DNA of 64,000 bases from Natrinema sp. SYSU A 869 (GTDB lineage Archaea > Halobacteriota > Halobacteria > Halobacteriales > Natrialbaceae): assembly GCF_019879105.1 (NCBI RefSeq), contig NZ_CP082249.1, positions 3,224,001 to 3,288,000 on the forward strand, written 5' to 3'. Shown piece after piece: positions 19,207 to 33,360 of this stretch (its first letter is position 1; each line of letters opens with the position of its first letter). A model generated the notes under the pieces. It did no database searches. It was not told where the DNA came from and saw only the letters and a program-made list of their open reading frames with translations. The position numbers were made by a program, and so were the translations under genes.

Positions 19207-20682
19207 ATGGGATGGAAGGAAGCCGCTGAACCGGTCCTCACGCGGATGCCAGCAGTGCGCCGTCCGGAGGGACACGTTCCCTTCAAGCGCAAGCTGATGT
19301 GGTCGGCCGGCATCCTGATGTTGTACTTCTTCCTGACGAGCATCACGATGCTCGGGTATCAGGCCGGCGGGGCGAGCGACCTCTTCGGGGAGTTCCGTGC
19401 GATCCTCGGCGGAGCACACGGATCAGTCCTGCAGGTCGGTATCGGTCCGATCGTCACCGCGAGCATCGTCTTACAGTTGCTCGGCGGTGCGAACCTACTC
19501 GGACTCGACACGGACGATCCCCGGGACCAGGTCCTCTATCAGGGCCTCCAGAAGCTGCTGGTCATCCTGATGGTCATCTTGACCGGGCTCCCGATGGTGT
19601 TCTCCGGTCCGCCGGGAGGGGGCTTCCTGCCCGTCCAGACATCGCTGCAACTCGGTGGGATCGCACTCACTGCAACACAGATTCAGGTCCTGATGTTCGC
19701 CCAGATCCTCGTTGGCGGGATCCTCATCCTCTACATGGACGAGGTCGTCAGCAAGTGGGGCGTCGGCAGCGGGATCGGTCTGTTCATCATCGCCGGCGTG
19801 AGCCAGCGTCTAGTCACTGGTTTCATCCAGCCTAACTCAGCAGGGTTCTTCTATAGCTGGTATGAGATTCTGACCGGCCAGATCGATATCGGATCGATTG
19901 CTTCCGGTGAGGGGCTCTACGCCCTGTTAGTCTCCGAGGGGAACCTCATCGGGCTGGTGACGACGCTGCTGATCTTCGGGATCGTCGTCTACGCGGAGTC
20001 AGTTCGCGTCGAGATCCCGCTCAGCCACGCCCGGGTCAAGGGTGCTCGCGGGCGCTTCCCCGTGAAGCTCATCTACGCGAGCGTCCTGCCCATGATCCTC
20101 GTTCGTGCAGTGCAGGCGAACGTCCAGTTCATCGGGCAGATCCTGAACAGTCAGTTGGGTAGCATGCCCGGCTGGCTTGGAACCTACTCACAACAGGGTA
20201 ATCCTGTCAGTGGGTTCTTCTACTACGTGGCCCCGATCTACTCCCGGGAGGAATGGATGTGGTGGACGTCCGGTGTCACCCAGGAGTGGTGGCAGGTAAT
20301 GATGCGGATCGGCATCGACGTCACCTTCATGGTCGTCGGTGGCGCGGTCTTCGCCATCTTCTGGGTGGAAACCACCGACATGGGTCCGGAATCGACGGCA
20401 CAACAGATCCAGAACTCCGGGATGCAGATCCCCGGCTTCCGACAGAACGTCGGCGTCATCGAGAAGGTCATGGAGCGGTACATCCCGCAAGTGACCGTCA
20501 TCGGCGGCGCGCTGGTCGGCCTGCTGGCCGTCTGTGCGAACATGCTCGGTACCATCGGTAGTGTCAGTGGAACCGGGCTGCTACTGGCCGTCTCCATTAC
20601 GTACAAGCTGTACGAGGAGATCGCCGAGGAGCAGATGATGGAAATGCATCCGATGATGCGCCAGATGTTCGGCTCGGAATAG
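19207..20682 (+). CDS. secY: Preprotein translocase subunit SecY
   Basis: 491 residues, about ten membrane segments. Forms the protein-conducting channel with SecE and Sec61-beta. Seen: the N-terminal amphipathic helix and first segment (MWSAGILMLYFFLTSITML), the plug region after it, EIPLSHARVKGARGRFPVKL in the cytosolic loop with conserved Arg residues, and the final segments LLAVSITYKLYEEIAEEQMM. Last gene of the long operon; followed by a hairpin with a T-run. Confidence 0.97.
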   Translation: MGWKEAAEPVLTRMPAVRRPEGHVPFKRKLMWSAGILMLYFFLTSITMLGYQAGGASDLFGEFRAILGGAHGSVLQVGIGPIVTASIVLQLLGGANLLGLDTDDPRDQVLYQGLQKLLVILMVILTGLPMVFSGPPGGGFLPVQTSLQLGGIALTATQIQVLMFAQILVGGILILYMDEVVSKWGVGSGIGLFIIAGVSQRLVTGFIQPNSAGFFYSWYEILTGQIDIGSIASGEGLYALLVSEGNLIGLVTTLLIFGIVVYAESVRVEIPLSHARVKGARGRFPVKLIYASVLPMILVRAVQANVQFIGQILNSQLGSMPGWLGTYSQQGNPVSGFFYYVAPIYSREEWMWWTSGVTQEWWQVMMRIGIDVTFMVVGGAVFAIFWVETTDMGPESTAQQIQNSGMQIPGFRQNVGVIEKVMERYIPQVTVIGGALVGLLAVCANMLGTIGSVSGTGLLLAVSITYKLYEEIAEEQMMEMHPMMRQMFGSE

Positions 20683-20697
20683 CGATACTCTGTTTTC

Positions 20698-20757
20698 GGG
20701 CGCTTCACGCCCCCATTTTTCACGCAGGATCAGTCCATAGTAGCGAGCGTTCGCTAC
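20698..20757 (+). terminator. Terminator region after secY
   Basis: A 5-bp GC stem (gggcg at 20698-20702, cgccc at 20708-20712) is followed by cccattttt with a T5 run at 20716-20720. A second hairpin, gtagcga/tcgctac (20740-20757), follows. Together they likely end the ribosomal-protein operon. Confidence 0.5.
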
Positions 20758-20990
20758 TGGTTAGAGGTGGTCGCGTATGACCGCTACCAGCAGCTGTCAA
20801 AATACCAGTGGTAGTCAGCCCCTCTCGACGGCTTCATGGCAGGAATCTTCTCGAGCCGAAGAAATTGGACACGTTAGCACAAGAAGCACTCTCACAGTGC
20901 TCTGGCATCGGTCTCACCACCCTCATCAAGAGTGACTCCGGGCTCGAGCCGATGACGCGATCGTGACTCGGATCGGCCCGTGTTCGACCA

Positions 20991-21381
20991 GTGCCGAACT
21001 ACAGCGATGAGATGCAGTGGTGCCCCAACTGTGAGCATGAACAACCGGGGAGTGTCATCGATTACGTGCCCAGCGGCGTCATAGCATGGCGCTGGCGACG
21101 ATGCGGCCACGAAGCGGACTGTGCGACGTGCCAGAGGCCGAGCCCGACGAACACGCTGCTGAGCATCTCGATGAAATCGAGCAGCAGCGCTCCGTAATCT
21201 CGAGCAACACTCAGCTATCGTACTGGAGCATCGTGCCCGACCACTACGGGTGCTGGACCGATAACTCGAGCAGGCTGCCCCCGGTGTGAACACGAGACGT
21301 TCCCGGTGACGACCGACGACAAGAACATGCAGCATTGTCGCGGCCACTGTGGCATCGTCTATGTGGCCGGCGACAATGACT
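20991..21381 (+). pseudogene. Decayed small zinc-ribbon protein(s)
   Basis: From the GTG at 20991 the frame encodes MQWCPNCEHEQPGSVIDYVP, a typical zinc-ribbon start with CPNC, then RCGHEADCATC, and degenerates. Near 21280 another frame resumes with GCPRCEHETFPV and HCRGHCGIVYVAGDND, ending in TGA at 21379-21381. No single frame joins these parts, so I read this as the remains of one or two zinc-ribbon genes. Family not identified. Confidence 0.4.
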
Positions 21382-21777
21382 GACGACGGCTGCGACCACT
21401 ATAGAGCCGGCCTCAAGCCGACGAATGCTGTTCGATCGGTCATCTCGATAGGCTTCGGTGCTGGCAACGATCGGACACGGATGTTCTGTAATCGTGTCTG
21501 TCGTGCGAAGTGGCGAGATCCCGAAGCTGATGTCGTGCTCGTACGGACGCGACAGACGACGCTAGCTGCTTTCGATTCGGACGCGACCGGGCCCGCCCCT
21601 GAGACAGTGTACGTCGATGGCAGGGTGTTCATGGACGAGCAGTTCCTGGATCTCGCTGACCGTCTTGTCAGTACTGAGATCACGACGCATGCCTCCTCGA
21701 ATGGGATGAGACCCGATGGGTTGAAACCGACCGCGAGAACCAAGAAGATCTCTCGTTCATACCATATGAGACCATAA
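21376..21777 (+). CDS. Hypothetical Cys-containing protein
   Basis: 133 residues from the ATG at 21376, which overlaps the TGA of the preceding relict frame (ATGACTGA). The N-terminal part has Cys/His pairs (DDGCDHYRAGLKP and TRMFCNRVCRAKWRDPEADV) that could form a treble-clef-like zinc site. The C-terminal half looks unstructured and may be read-through past an ancestral end. It could be a relict too; confidence is low. Confidence 0.35.
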   Translation: MTDDGCDHYRAGLKPTNAVRSVISIGFGAGNDRTRMFCNRVCRAKWRDPEADVVLVRTRQTTLAAFDSDATGPAPETVYVDGRVFMDEQFLDLADRLVSTEITTHASSNGMRPDGLKPTARTKKISRSYHMRP

Positions 21778-21934
21778 TTCACAGTTGATGTATTCCCAGT
21801 TGTCCGGTCGGGTATTCCCGTCGGGGAGCGTCTCAAACATCCAATTGACGCGCGTAACAGTACGTAACGGTGTGTGGCGTTAACAACATCCGAAATATAC
21901 TGGTGATCCGGGTAGCGGTCTACCCATGATCTGA

Positions 21935-22438
21935 ATGCACAATCGGAGAAGTATCCTTCAAGCTATCGGGGTGTGTAGTCTCGGTACAGTTGGACTTGCC
22001 GGAACAGCGTCGGCAGGTGAAAACGATGAGTATGAAAACGGCAAGAAAAAGGAGAAGAAGAAACACCACCACCGGAAAAAGAAACACAACGGTAAGAAAC
22101 GCAGGGACAGGAAGCAGAAAGAGCACCGCAAAGGCAAACAGTATCACGACGATGACGACGAACCAGAGGATCTTGGAGATCAGATCCAGCAGCAAGTGGA
22201 CGAGGAGATAAGAGAAACCAAGCGAGAGGTGGACGAGGAGATAGAAGAGCTTGATTTGTTCGACGTGGAGGATGATGGAGACCATCGGAAGAAGGGGCGC
22301 CGAAAGAAGGATCGTCGGAAGAAGGACCGTCGGAAGAAAGATTATCAGGATAAAAACAGCAAAGGACGGCGAAAAGACCACGGTAAGAAGCGGAAGAAAC
22401 GCAAGGGGAAAGACGAAGACGGTACAAAGAAACACTGA
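21935..22438 (+). CDS. Tat-exported, extremely basic Lys/His/Arg-rich protein
   Basis: 167 residues. The N-terminus MHNRRSILQAIGVCSLGTVG with LAGTASAG is a Tat-type signal (twin Arg, Gly/Ser/Thr-rich core, AxA-type cleavage after about residue 27). The mature protein is dominated by Lys, Arg, His and Asp, with short tandem units KKDRRKKD and KKHHHRKKKH, broken by one acidic amphipathic stretch (QQQVDEEIRETKREVDEEIE, about residues 84-103) likely to form a coiled coil. In an acidic haloarchaeal proteome this is exceptional. AT-richer than its surroundings, suggesting transfer. A cell-surface polyanion (DNA, S-layer glycan) or metal is a plausible ligand, but this is inference. Confidence 0.6.
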   Translation: MHNRRSILQAIGVCSLGTVGLAGTASAGENDEYENGKKKEKKKHHHRKKKHNGKKRRDRKQKEHRKGKQYHDDDDEPEDLGDQIQQQVDEEIRETKREVDEEIEELDLFDVEDDGDHRKKGRRKKDRRKKDRRKKDYQDKNSKGRRKDHGKKRKKRKGKDEDGTKKH

Positions 22439-22590
22439 TACTGAAATACTAGCGCAAAACTGGCTCCGCGAAACACGCTGTTCTTTTTCTGGAGTTGTTA
22501 TATTCTGACGAAATAGTGCTCAGTATGTGCGTATTTTTGACGCGTATGGACATCTATACGAGAACCAGTGATAATAGAGAAACACCGCTC

Positions 22591-22911
22591 ATGAATGGCA
22601 GCCGGGTTTCGAAAGCGAATCCACGCATCAAAGCGTACGAGACAATCAACGAGCGTAACGCAGCCATCAGCGTCGTGATCCCGGACGAGGGGTTATCTAC
22701 TACATTCTCTCACCACGGTGCTATGGCAATTCCTTCGCCTGTACGTACCACTGATCCGCGATCGCCATCCAACTTCAAGGGATCCTGCGTCGAGAAACCG
22801 GTCGATCCTCACACATTTCTCAACACCGTTCGGTCGCTTGAGGAGTTCCGAATTGAAATTGACCGATTACCACCCGACGAAACAGTTGACGAAGGGGACG
22901 AACACGGGTAG
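22591..22911 (+). pseudogene. Response-regulator receiver-domain relict
   Basis: The last 45 residues (CVEKPVDPHTFLNTVRSLEE, then FRIEIDRLPPDE) match the end of Rcp1-type receiver proteins: the conserved Lys-Pro before the last helix, then the TVRSLEEF helix and IDRLPPD. The first 60 residues of the frame do not show the receiver Asp or strands. I read it as the 3' part of a decayed gene, without its phosphorylation site. Confidence 0.45.
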
Positions 22912-23737
22912 CCGTAGCGCCCGTATCGCGGAGGTGGCACAGCAATCTGTCAGATGTTCGGCAGCGAATAACGACTCGTTCTCGTTTTCTTTCTGTTCAT
23001 CGTATCCGGAAGCTGCTGCATCATCGATTGCGATCCACGATGATATGTGGATCCACCTGACCGGAATACGTTCGAACTGTCAGCCTGATTTCGTAACCGA
23101 AATCGCTGGCCGTAGACCTTCCGACTCCGATGCAGAGGGTGACCGTCCTGTGAACGAACTCCGTTTAAAACAACCAGTACCGAAAAGCGCACGTCGATCC
23201 ATCAGTCGAACGAGTTTACGAGGCGTCCGTCTCGGGTCCAGTTGATCGGTCGACCGAATCGCTCGTACATAGGGATCCGTACGGACTGCAGAAGGCGTAC
23301 GGAAACGTCTCCAAGACCACCTGTTCAGCAGCACTGACGACAGCGCTGAACTGGGAGGGTAGTAATCGGACAGCGAACACCACGAGGATACCGTCTCGGT
23401 TCGGGCCACGACGTACGACGCTGACACCGGCGGAGTGACGGTCACGCTTGACAGCAACAGGTCCTCAAGGAACGGTTCACGGGCGCTCGTTCGATGAGCC
23501 GACGGTCGGTCACTACGTGCGTATAGACGGCATATCGTCCTCAGCGGAGTGTAATGAGCAGCCGATCGGCGGTCGCTTTCGCTCGCTATAGTGGGGACGA
23601 CCGTTTGGCGAAGACTGAACGACGCGGCGAATGATCGGGGTCAGCGGATCGCTGAGAGAGCTGACGCTGTGGGGTGCCGGAAGACGGCGAGAAACGTGTA
23701 TATTTGATCTGCGAGAGGGTCGAATTCTCGAGGCAGA
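22912..23737. other. 826-base stretch without a recognised gene
   Basis: Several short overlapping frames occur on both strands, none with family features. A segment near 23380-23490 reads on the plus strand as TVSVRATTYDADTGGVTVTL, protein-like but without a start, so probably a fragment of a decayed gene. The region ends at the convergent side of the subunit IV gene. Confidence 0.4.
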
Positions 23738-31602: not shown

Positions 31603-33147
31603 TCAGTTGTTTTTGACGTCGACTTTGTGTTCGGCGACATTGAGATAGGTGAGTTGGGGTGGGAGGATACTCGGATCTGGGTAGATACTCATGTCGGCAT
31701 CTTTGAGATCCTCATCGTACTCGAAGTCGATACCACTGCCACCTTGAATGTCGACCGATGACGAGACAATCGATCCATAGATGTTAGGGTTCGAGTGAAT
31801 ACAGACCTGTTTCTCACAGCCGTGTCGCTTCTCCCAGTTCGCCTTGTAGCCCCCTGCATAGAGTACGCCTTCGAATCTGGACTCACCACCCGGACCGAAG
31901 TCTATCTTCGAATCCTCTTCTGTAACTAGCTGTATTACGGTCCCGTCATTATTAGTGTAACAATCAGAACCTGTCGTGTCAACGCAAGTATTGCCGCCGT
32001 TTTTGGCATTGTAGTCCCCACTCATATAGACACTCAGCTGATTTCCATCCTCATAGTCGTTCACCGTTATCGTCTCACCGTCTGCATAGATGCTGCCGTT
32101 GACCACGACTGTCGCGTTGCCGTCGGAGAGATCGACATCGAGATGACCACTTTCCGTAACCTCATCAGCAAAGTAGACTCCCTCGTCGAGCGGCTCAGTG
32201 GAGTCAACCGAGCCGAGACGCACAATTGGCTCGTCCTGATACTCGCTGTTCGGCGATTCCGTCTCGTTTATTACTCGTTCGACTTCTTCAGTTAATGACG
32301 GGAACGCCGCTTTTTCGACGATATCGTCAGTACCAGGGTTTCCACCGCTTTCGTAGTCAATCGCGTAGAGCGCACCAGTTGTGAATGCGTCCGAGATTTC
32401 TCGATAGCCGAATTCGGCCGTTACGATCCCGGTTTCGTTGTTCGGGAACGTTTCGACATTTTGTACTGCTGTCGGACCGCCCTGCTGTTCAAAGTATTGT
32501 TCCCACCCACGATAGTACTTGCTCGTGACTGTAATCGTCACGGAATCGTTTTCGATGAGCGTTGCGTTCTGAAGAGAATTCGTCTCGTGATGATCAACGT
32601 ACACGTCACCGGAACTGAGCTGCGTCTCGTTTCGCACGTTAACTATTGGGAATGTGAGGGACTCCCTTTCAGGATCGTAACTGATCGGGGGTGCAGACAC
32701 GATCCGGGTTTCCTGCCCTGTCTCTCTGAAGACGCCGCCTGCCTGATACGCGATTCTAGTCCCGTCGTCTCCTTCGTATTCGATCGCTCCAATCGAGATA
32801 TTCGTATCAACATCCCCACCTTCTATCTGAAAATTTCCGGAATCGGTCGTTACGACTGCACCGTTTTGACCGACGGCGAGATCCATCGACCGTGAGATAT
32901 CGTTGTTTGTTGATGCCGTCCGCATCTGTTGACTCAATTCGACGAATCCCCCTTCGACTTGCTCGTTCTCCAATTGCTGTTCCGTACTGGTCATCGTGTC
33001 CCCCGCGACGAGAAGGATACCGACGCTGACAGCCGCGACCATTCCGATCAATAGAACAAGGCCGATTACTGCAGTTACTCCCCTTTTCGACGGATTTACT
33101 CCCCTTTTCGACGGAATAACTGCTCCGCTATCGCGTCGTGGACCCAT
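31603..33147 (-). CDS. Exported pilin-like N-terminus protein (DUF7289 type)
   Basis: 514 residues. A class III/pilin-like N-terminus SKRGVTAVIGLVLLIGMVAA (about residues 19-38) is followed by a long Asn/Asp/Thr-rich extracellular domain with DVYVDHHETNSLQNATLIEN and, near the end, FEGVLYAGGYKANWEKRHGC and two close Cys (GCEKQVC). Such haloarchaeal proteins are thought to be surface or pseudopilus-like components. The N-terminus contains a duplicated heptad (IPSKRGV-NPSKRGV) coded by a 21-base tandem repeat. AT-richer than neighbours, inserted between adk and the DUF106 gene. Confidence 0.75.
   Translation of the reverse strand: MGPRRDSGAVIPSKRGVNPSKRGVTAVIGLVLLIGMVAAVSVGILLVAGDTMTSTEQQLENEQVEGGFVELSQQMRTASTNNDISRSMDLAVGQNGAVVTTDSGNFQIEGGDVDTNISIGAIEYEGDDGTRIAYQAGGVFRETGQETRIVSAPPISYDPERESLTFPIVNVRNETQLSSGDVYVDHHETNSLQNATLIENDSVTITVTSKYYRGWEQYFEQQGGPTAVQNVETFPNNETGIVTAEFGYREISDAFTTGALYAIDYESGGNPGTDDIVEKAAFPSLTEEVERVINETESPNSEYQDEPIVRLGSVDSTEPLDEGVYFADEVTESGHLDVDLSDGNATVVVNGSIYADGETITVNDYEDGNQLSVYMSGDYNAKNGGNTCVDTTGSDCYTNNDGTVIQLVTEEDSKIDFGPGGESRFEGVLYAGGYKANWEKRHGCEKQVCIHSNPNIYGSIVSSSVDIQGGSGIDFEYDEDLKDADMSIYPDPSILPPQLTYLNVAEHKVDVKNN
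33075..33115. repeat. 21-base tandem duplication in the DUF7289-type gene
   Basis: Two identical copies of ttactccccttttcgacgga at 33075-33094 and 33096-33115, period 21, keeping the frame and doubling the PSKRGV heptad before the membrane segment. It sits exactly at the prepilin-peptidase-type processing region. Confidence 0.75.
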
Positions 33148-33360
33148 TTATATCGACTGGTACTTCGGAATTCCGTATGATAAACCGTTCGACCGATCAA
33201 ACAGTTCATATCTATAGAGTAACAGAGAATATTACGTACTTGCTCGTCATTGCGTGCGATAGGCGGTTCCGTCGTGACGACAGCGACCTAACTTTCGGTC
33301 CATTAAACGACATGTCACTGAGCGACGTTCCGAGGTCACTCTGACTACCGAAGAAAAACA

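Follow-up and report, generated by a model that had tools for sequence, protein, structure and literature searches.

A Tat-signal, lysine-rich protein gene on an insert behind secY in Natrinema sp. SYSU A 869 and the candidate control region of its family

This analysis provides evidence that a gene of Natrinema sp. SYSU A 869, at positions 21935-22438 of a 64,000-nucleotide stretch of DNA (hereafter the window; genes and motifs are on its plus strand unless stated otherwise), belongs to a family of Tat-signal proteins with lysine-rich repeats whose members have an upstream control region in common. We propose that the gene may be accessory and regulated and may encode an exported polyelectrolyte, which would bind or cross-link anionic surface material. 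The probability of this reading is put at about 0.45, and the binding function is the part that we infer.

The open reading frame runs uninterrupted from ATG to TGA and encodes a 167-residue protein, predicted to be exported, with a Tat signal and a basic-acidic-basic layout. The full-length protein has a pI of 9.77; its 140 mature residues, starting with residue 28, have a pI of 9.71 and a net charge of about +15 at pH 7, with 35 Lys, 18 Arg and 9 His against 22 Asp and 17 Glu and a charged-residue fraction of 0.66. Haloarchaeal proteins owe their acidity to salt, and the median pI of the 71 genes called in the window is 4.64; among these genes the lysine fraction of the protein (0.21) is the highest, the runner-up having 0.083. 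Together with the twin-arginine signal, these values bear out the original prediction of a strongly basic Tat substrate amid an acidic proteome.

The mature chain is divided into an N-terminal basic arm rich in K, R and H with an HHH run (residues 36-70, 22040-22144, pI 10.1), an acidic middle (residues 71-117, 22145-22285, pI 4.05) containing an amphipathic helix with the motif L-x3-IQQxVDE, and a C-terminal basic arm with RRKKD tandem units (22286-22435, pI 11.3). The tandem KKDRRKKD units described at the outset correspond to a 15-nt tandem repeat at 22289-22338, with 3.3 copies of the KKDRR unit at 85% match. The central acidic helix that had also been predicted was recovered at residues 80-109 (codons 22172-22261), where the hydrophobic moment of 0.48 exceeds the average of 0.18 obtained for shuffles (p=0.002). 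The AlphaFold2 model places helices at 80-109 and 117-144, at a mean pLDDT of 57 and thus low confidence overall. No Pfam-A family matched the protein at E below 1, and a PDB sequence search with it returned no match.

Concerning export, residues 1-27 (RRSILQAIGVCSLGTVGLAGTASA; 21935-22015) form a Tat-type signal peptide, MHNRRSILQAIGVCSLGTVGLAGTASA, with a predicted AxA-type cleavage site before GENDE. The RR pair at residues 4-5 is followed by 23 uncharged residues, in agreement with the definition used for Tat substrates (RR in the first 35 residues and a long uncharged stretch), and R4, R5, L8, G20, G23 and A27 are invariant in 13 aligned members of the family. In haloarchaea, 39-55% of secreted proteins go out by the Tat pathway, and the lipobox rule for haloarchaeal Tat lipoproteins places a Cys 12-21 residues past the second R (PMC2945643). 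Such a lipobox (LAGC or TAGC at that distance) is not present: the sole Cys is residue 14, 9 residues past R5, in GVCSLG, and the signal ends TASAG. The RR motif, uncharged h-region and AxA-like cleavage site are like those of haloarchaeal SPase I-type Tat substrates (PMC2945643). Unlike the other Tat matches, which are mostly acidic and folded-looking, the protein is basic, repetitive and probably mostly disordered. It resembles the formate dehydrogenase region TAT target (TIGR02811, formate_TAT, NCBIfam) in being a short Tat target with a basic tail; membership there was rejected, the score being 18.8 bits against a cut-off of 48.45 with a match limited to the signal and first lysines. Export by the Tat pathway with signal cleavage is thus well supported as a sequence-based prediction.

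Proteins with a Tat signal and K/R/H-rich repeats were found in at least 28 of 125 genomes and 11 of 29 genera of the taxonomic family. They came to light as weak single-sequence matches that were inspected, and further searches raised the count. We propose that they make up a patchy and apparently undescribed lysine-rich Tat family of the Natrialbaceae, and the protein studied here, with K/R/H-rich low-complexity sequence directly behind its Tat signal, is among them. The original prediction had suggested looking for Tat signals ahead of lysine-rich regions elsewhere and had counted a lack of homologues with a conserved signal against itself; relatives with conserved signals do exist.

Four subtypes can be told apart by the sequence C-terminal to the basic part. 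The present protein and those of genomes G118 and G083 have the acidic coil L-x3-IQQxVDE between two basic arms (subtype i). A short motif like VETSNI...GTxVxTSNxxV marks subtype ii (G039, G062, G065, G070, G071, G076, G094 and G096), and a tail like PDPVTDTxGF marks subtype iii (G046, G047, G048, G050, G086, G088, G090, G092 and a second copy in G087). Subtype iv consists of repeats only (G052-G056, G087 and G100). The proteins of G102 and G105, with NGKNGR repeats, are left unassigned. Genome G087 therefore has two family copies, one of subtype iii (L242, 4858 onwards) and one of subtype iv elsewhere in the genome.

The repeat number differs among congeneric orthologues, with lengths of 96-151 residues in one genus. 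Since dN/dS between congeneric orthologues is about 0.1-0.5, the family is coding and under purifying selection, a value measured on relatives, as the present gene is without a close orthologue. The gene is neither an orphan nor a random reading frame. No Pfam-A family was matched at E below 0.1 by five relatives. Histidines number from 1 to 25 per family protein, and metal binding through His, as originally suggested, does not hold as a family feature. Because the syntenic relative in G039 is acidic (pI 4.3), net positive charge is not absolute in the family and cannot be the whole story.

Beyond these relatives, a protein search of the other 28 species of the genus gave no homologue, so that the present genome is the one in 29 with the gene. 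Matches at the same spot in G006 and G004 were rejected as unrelated Tat proteins or spurious frames. No protein relative was found in genome contigs, viral contigs, plasmids or phages by tblastn with a low-complexity filter, which is weak evidence. Order-wide profile matches outside the taxonomic family were mostly signal peptides alone; few candidates were scored per genome in these searches, so presence there is under-sampled. In G137 (L200), from another family of the order, a repeat-containing Tat protein of 233 residues has a high content of K, R, H and D; it may be a true distant member or convergent.

Signals and lysine runs look alike for trivial reasons, and tests independent of both were therefore made. 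The coil of the protein matches those of G118 and G083 better than composition-matched shuffles do (p about 8e-4 and 3e-4, respectively). With a profile built from G118 and G083 without the present protein, the latter ranks first among 29 genomes of the genus (E 4.9e-5), in a match whose best part is mainly the signal. Judged from sequence, the upstream DNA is the strongest evidence that ties the gene to the family, and the decisive one.

Upstream of the gene lie two GTAAC boxes (21854-21858 and, as GTAACG, 21864-21869), a TATA-like box CGTTAAC (21878-21884) and an inverted repeat, GGGTAG-cggt-CTACCC (21910-21925), which ends 9 nt before the ATG. The members have this layout in common: their TATA-like box (CGTTAAT/CTCATA) keeps a constant spacing from the GTAACG box, and in most of them the inverted repeat stops 7-10 nt short of the ATG. 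GTAAC at -85 to -45 was found in 22 of 25 members; among control Tat genes it occurred in 1 of 41, and among long ORFs in 6 of 219. Same-genus members are not independent in this count, and about ten genera carry the box. A matrix built with the present gene left out gave its upstream DNA a score of 40.2; over 20000 shuffles, the mean was -47.1 (sd 12.8) and the highest score 18.6. A model of the upstream region, R1, matches 21856-21937 at 53.1 bits. Over 420 kb around the members, R1 gave 17 sites, 15 strong and 2 weak, at positions that fit the family genes.

Pairs 4 and 5 of the stem vary (T-A, C-G and G-C; A-T, G-C and T-A), which indicates that pairing was kept through changes on both sides; as the stems were picked as hairpins, the variation is informative and the pairing itself is not. 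The inverted repeat could be a DNA operator, and not an RNA hairpin, if a second AT-rich box, AAATATAC (about 21893-21900), sets the transcription start near -10. Taken from these conserved elements, regulation of the gene by the family control region is well supported as a prediction. Elsewhere in the window, a weak match to the model (9.6 bits, E 0.17) at 33145-33198 on the minus strand, ending in the ATG of the gene at 31603-33147 (minus strand), may be due to chance.

Strong R1 sites (E 1e-8 to 1e-4) also occur in other species of the genus (L228-L232, L235, L237 and L238), where they precede a different gene. The product of that gene is rich in Gln and Gly and has a conserved helical core that contains Cys; the neighbouring gene, named by eye, apparently encodes a uracil phosphoribosyltransferase. 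Between the core and the Csp1 copper-storage model there is a weak match (E 0.015, far below the cut-off), which is a lead and not a function. We tentatively suggest, at somewhat less than even odds, a haloarchaeal regulon, marked by a GTAACG promoter and an inverted repeat immediately ahead of the start codon, that would be devoted to the export of disordered proteins of high charge or low complexity. Its control region would be conserved while the repeats, the C-terminal tail and the genomic place are swapped between genera, and in some congeneric species a Gln/Gly-rich, Csp1-like protein would stand behind it instead.

The gene lies on an accessory insert of about 2.27 kb (20686-22950) that also contains relict ORFs and is flanked by 24-bp direct repeats. 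The left copy (20662-20685) is the 3' end of secY, altered yet synonymous (QMFGSE and stop). In the right copy (22951-22974), the initial 21 bp are identical to the native secY 3' ends of G001, G002, G004 and G014, and with G004 the identity extends over all 24 bp. In G002, the secY 3' end is continuous with the intergenic DNA that precedes the gene for cytochrome oxidase subunit IV, an order that 20686-22950 breaks in the window, and a Natronorubrum record has the same secY-cox4 neighbourhood without the insert. A separate insert stands behind secY in G004, and its first 84 bp are those of the insert in the window; integration at the secY 3' end may thus be recurrent.

Based on the direct-repeat pattern, an integrase-borne element would have inserted at the secY 3' end and replaced the tail synonymously, and we infer site-specific integration as the probable mechanism. 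No integrase was seen within the insert, no report of secY attachment sites was found in the literature, and Rfam gave no match over the insert. The accessory nature of the gene is, on this comparison of loci, well supported.

The relict neighbours that had been noted are a truncated copy of a Zn-ribbon ORF (20991-21197), intact at 151 residues in G028, and a cobalamin adenosyltransferase fragment covering the first 43 of 171 profile positions (22552-22680). The gene had also been called AT-richer and hence recently acquired. It is indeed AT-richer, with 49% G+C and a GC3 of 0.57 (window median, 0.78), and part of its low G+C is forced by lysine codons. Family members typically have a low GC3 (0.57-0.76, as compared with about 0.75-0.9 for many of their neighbours), which makes it a weak sign of transfer that does not alone establish a recent one. 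The acquired setting itself was supported on other grounds, by the insert with direct repeats at the secY 3' end and the absence of the gene from the 28 other species of the genus.

Concerning the loci of the relatives, an acyl-CoA dehydrogenase gene is common to G118, of the coil subtype, and G039, G062 and G065, of another subtype; it was rejected as a general neighbour, since most of the acyl-CoA dehydrogenase loci fetched were without the gene. In G062 and G065, a TatA-like gene, recognised by eye, adjoins the lysine-rich Tat gene on the side far from the acyl-CoA dehydrogenase (L125, 10685-11029; L134, 10732-11064).

The main alternative is that the protein gives rise to secreted cationic peptides with antimicrobial action, as a halocin-like or protease-activated precursor: halolysins or other proteases would cut the Lys/Arg-rich chain outside the cell, and the pieces would damage competitors. 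A patchy distribution, fast-changing repeats and an accessory location would suit a weapon, and haloarchaea do have protease-activated secreted precursors with helical active parts, such as HmHapP of Haloferax mediterranei, an antagonistic precursor in which helical segments matter (PMC12893001). The likeness is one of description, both proteins being haloarchaeal with helical segments; the helix of the present protein is acidic, not cationic, and the arms carry its positive charge. No conserved neighbour suggesting an immunity gene, a dedicated protease or a surface structure was found at the family loci, and several loci, situated next to housekeeping genes, show vertical conservation within genera, which argues against a weapon. 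We consider this explanation unlikely. An extracellular binder of DNA or other nucleic acids, serving uptake, biofilm DNA or nutrient storage, appears less likely still: the disordered Lys/Arg/His-rich arms have a histone-tail-like composition, but many D and E residues stand among the basic ones, there is neither a DNA-binding domain nor a DNA-uptake or competence neighbour, and salt screening would weaken such binding.

Slightly behind these stands a metal-binding or metal-stress role, in which His/Asp/Glu-rich chains would buffer extracellular metals and the regulon would take in the Csp1-like Cys protein. The HHH and KH runs, and the same upstream region before the Gln/Gly-rich protein with its weak Csp1 match in several species of the genus, point in this direction; the variable His content, which is not conserved, and the Csp1 match under threshold point away from it, and we regard the role as improbable. 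To a similar degree, we doubt that the gene is a functionless passenger, a purine-rich repeat ORF on a decaying insert. Relict neighbours, low GC3 and the lack of an orthologue in the genus are what a passenger would have, but the ORF, the signal and the family promoter are all intact, and the relatives are under purifying selection.

The reading that we prefer is that of a regulated, exported polyelectrolyte. The copy in the window would have been brought in by a small element that integrated at the secY 3' end. The promoter with GTAACG boxes and the inverted repeat before the start codon, common to the family, would switch the gene, for which the sequence evidence is strong. The product would leave via Tat and be cleaved after TASA without a lipid anchor, as its signal suggests. 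The mature protein would then be mostly disordered. Its K/R/H arms may bind anionic material outside the membrane, such as phosphate-rich archaeal lipids, acidic S-layer glycoprotein, acidic exopolysaccharide or extracellular DNA, and its acidic amphipathic helix may pair with another helix or with the basic arms, giving a cross-linked coat or matrix. Molar salt strongly screens lysine electrostatic binding, and any electrostatic binding by the protein must survive it. In Nitrosopumilus maritimus, lysines were proposed to hold the exported protein NmPin on the anionic outer membrane face (PMC4922055); unlike the present protein, NmPin is a folded prolyl isomerase (parvulin) with a lysine patch, and the likeness is by description, with no sequence similarity claimed.

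A basic, disordered, exported family under common control would be an exception to the acidic rule of haloarchaeal proteins and ought to reveal a particular role on the cell surface. The common promoter offers a direct approach to the family, for which a single transcription factor and a single inducing condition would account. Further, the conserved control region suggests a way to find fast-evolving low-complexity families that are missed by protein search.
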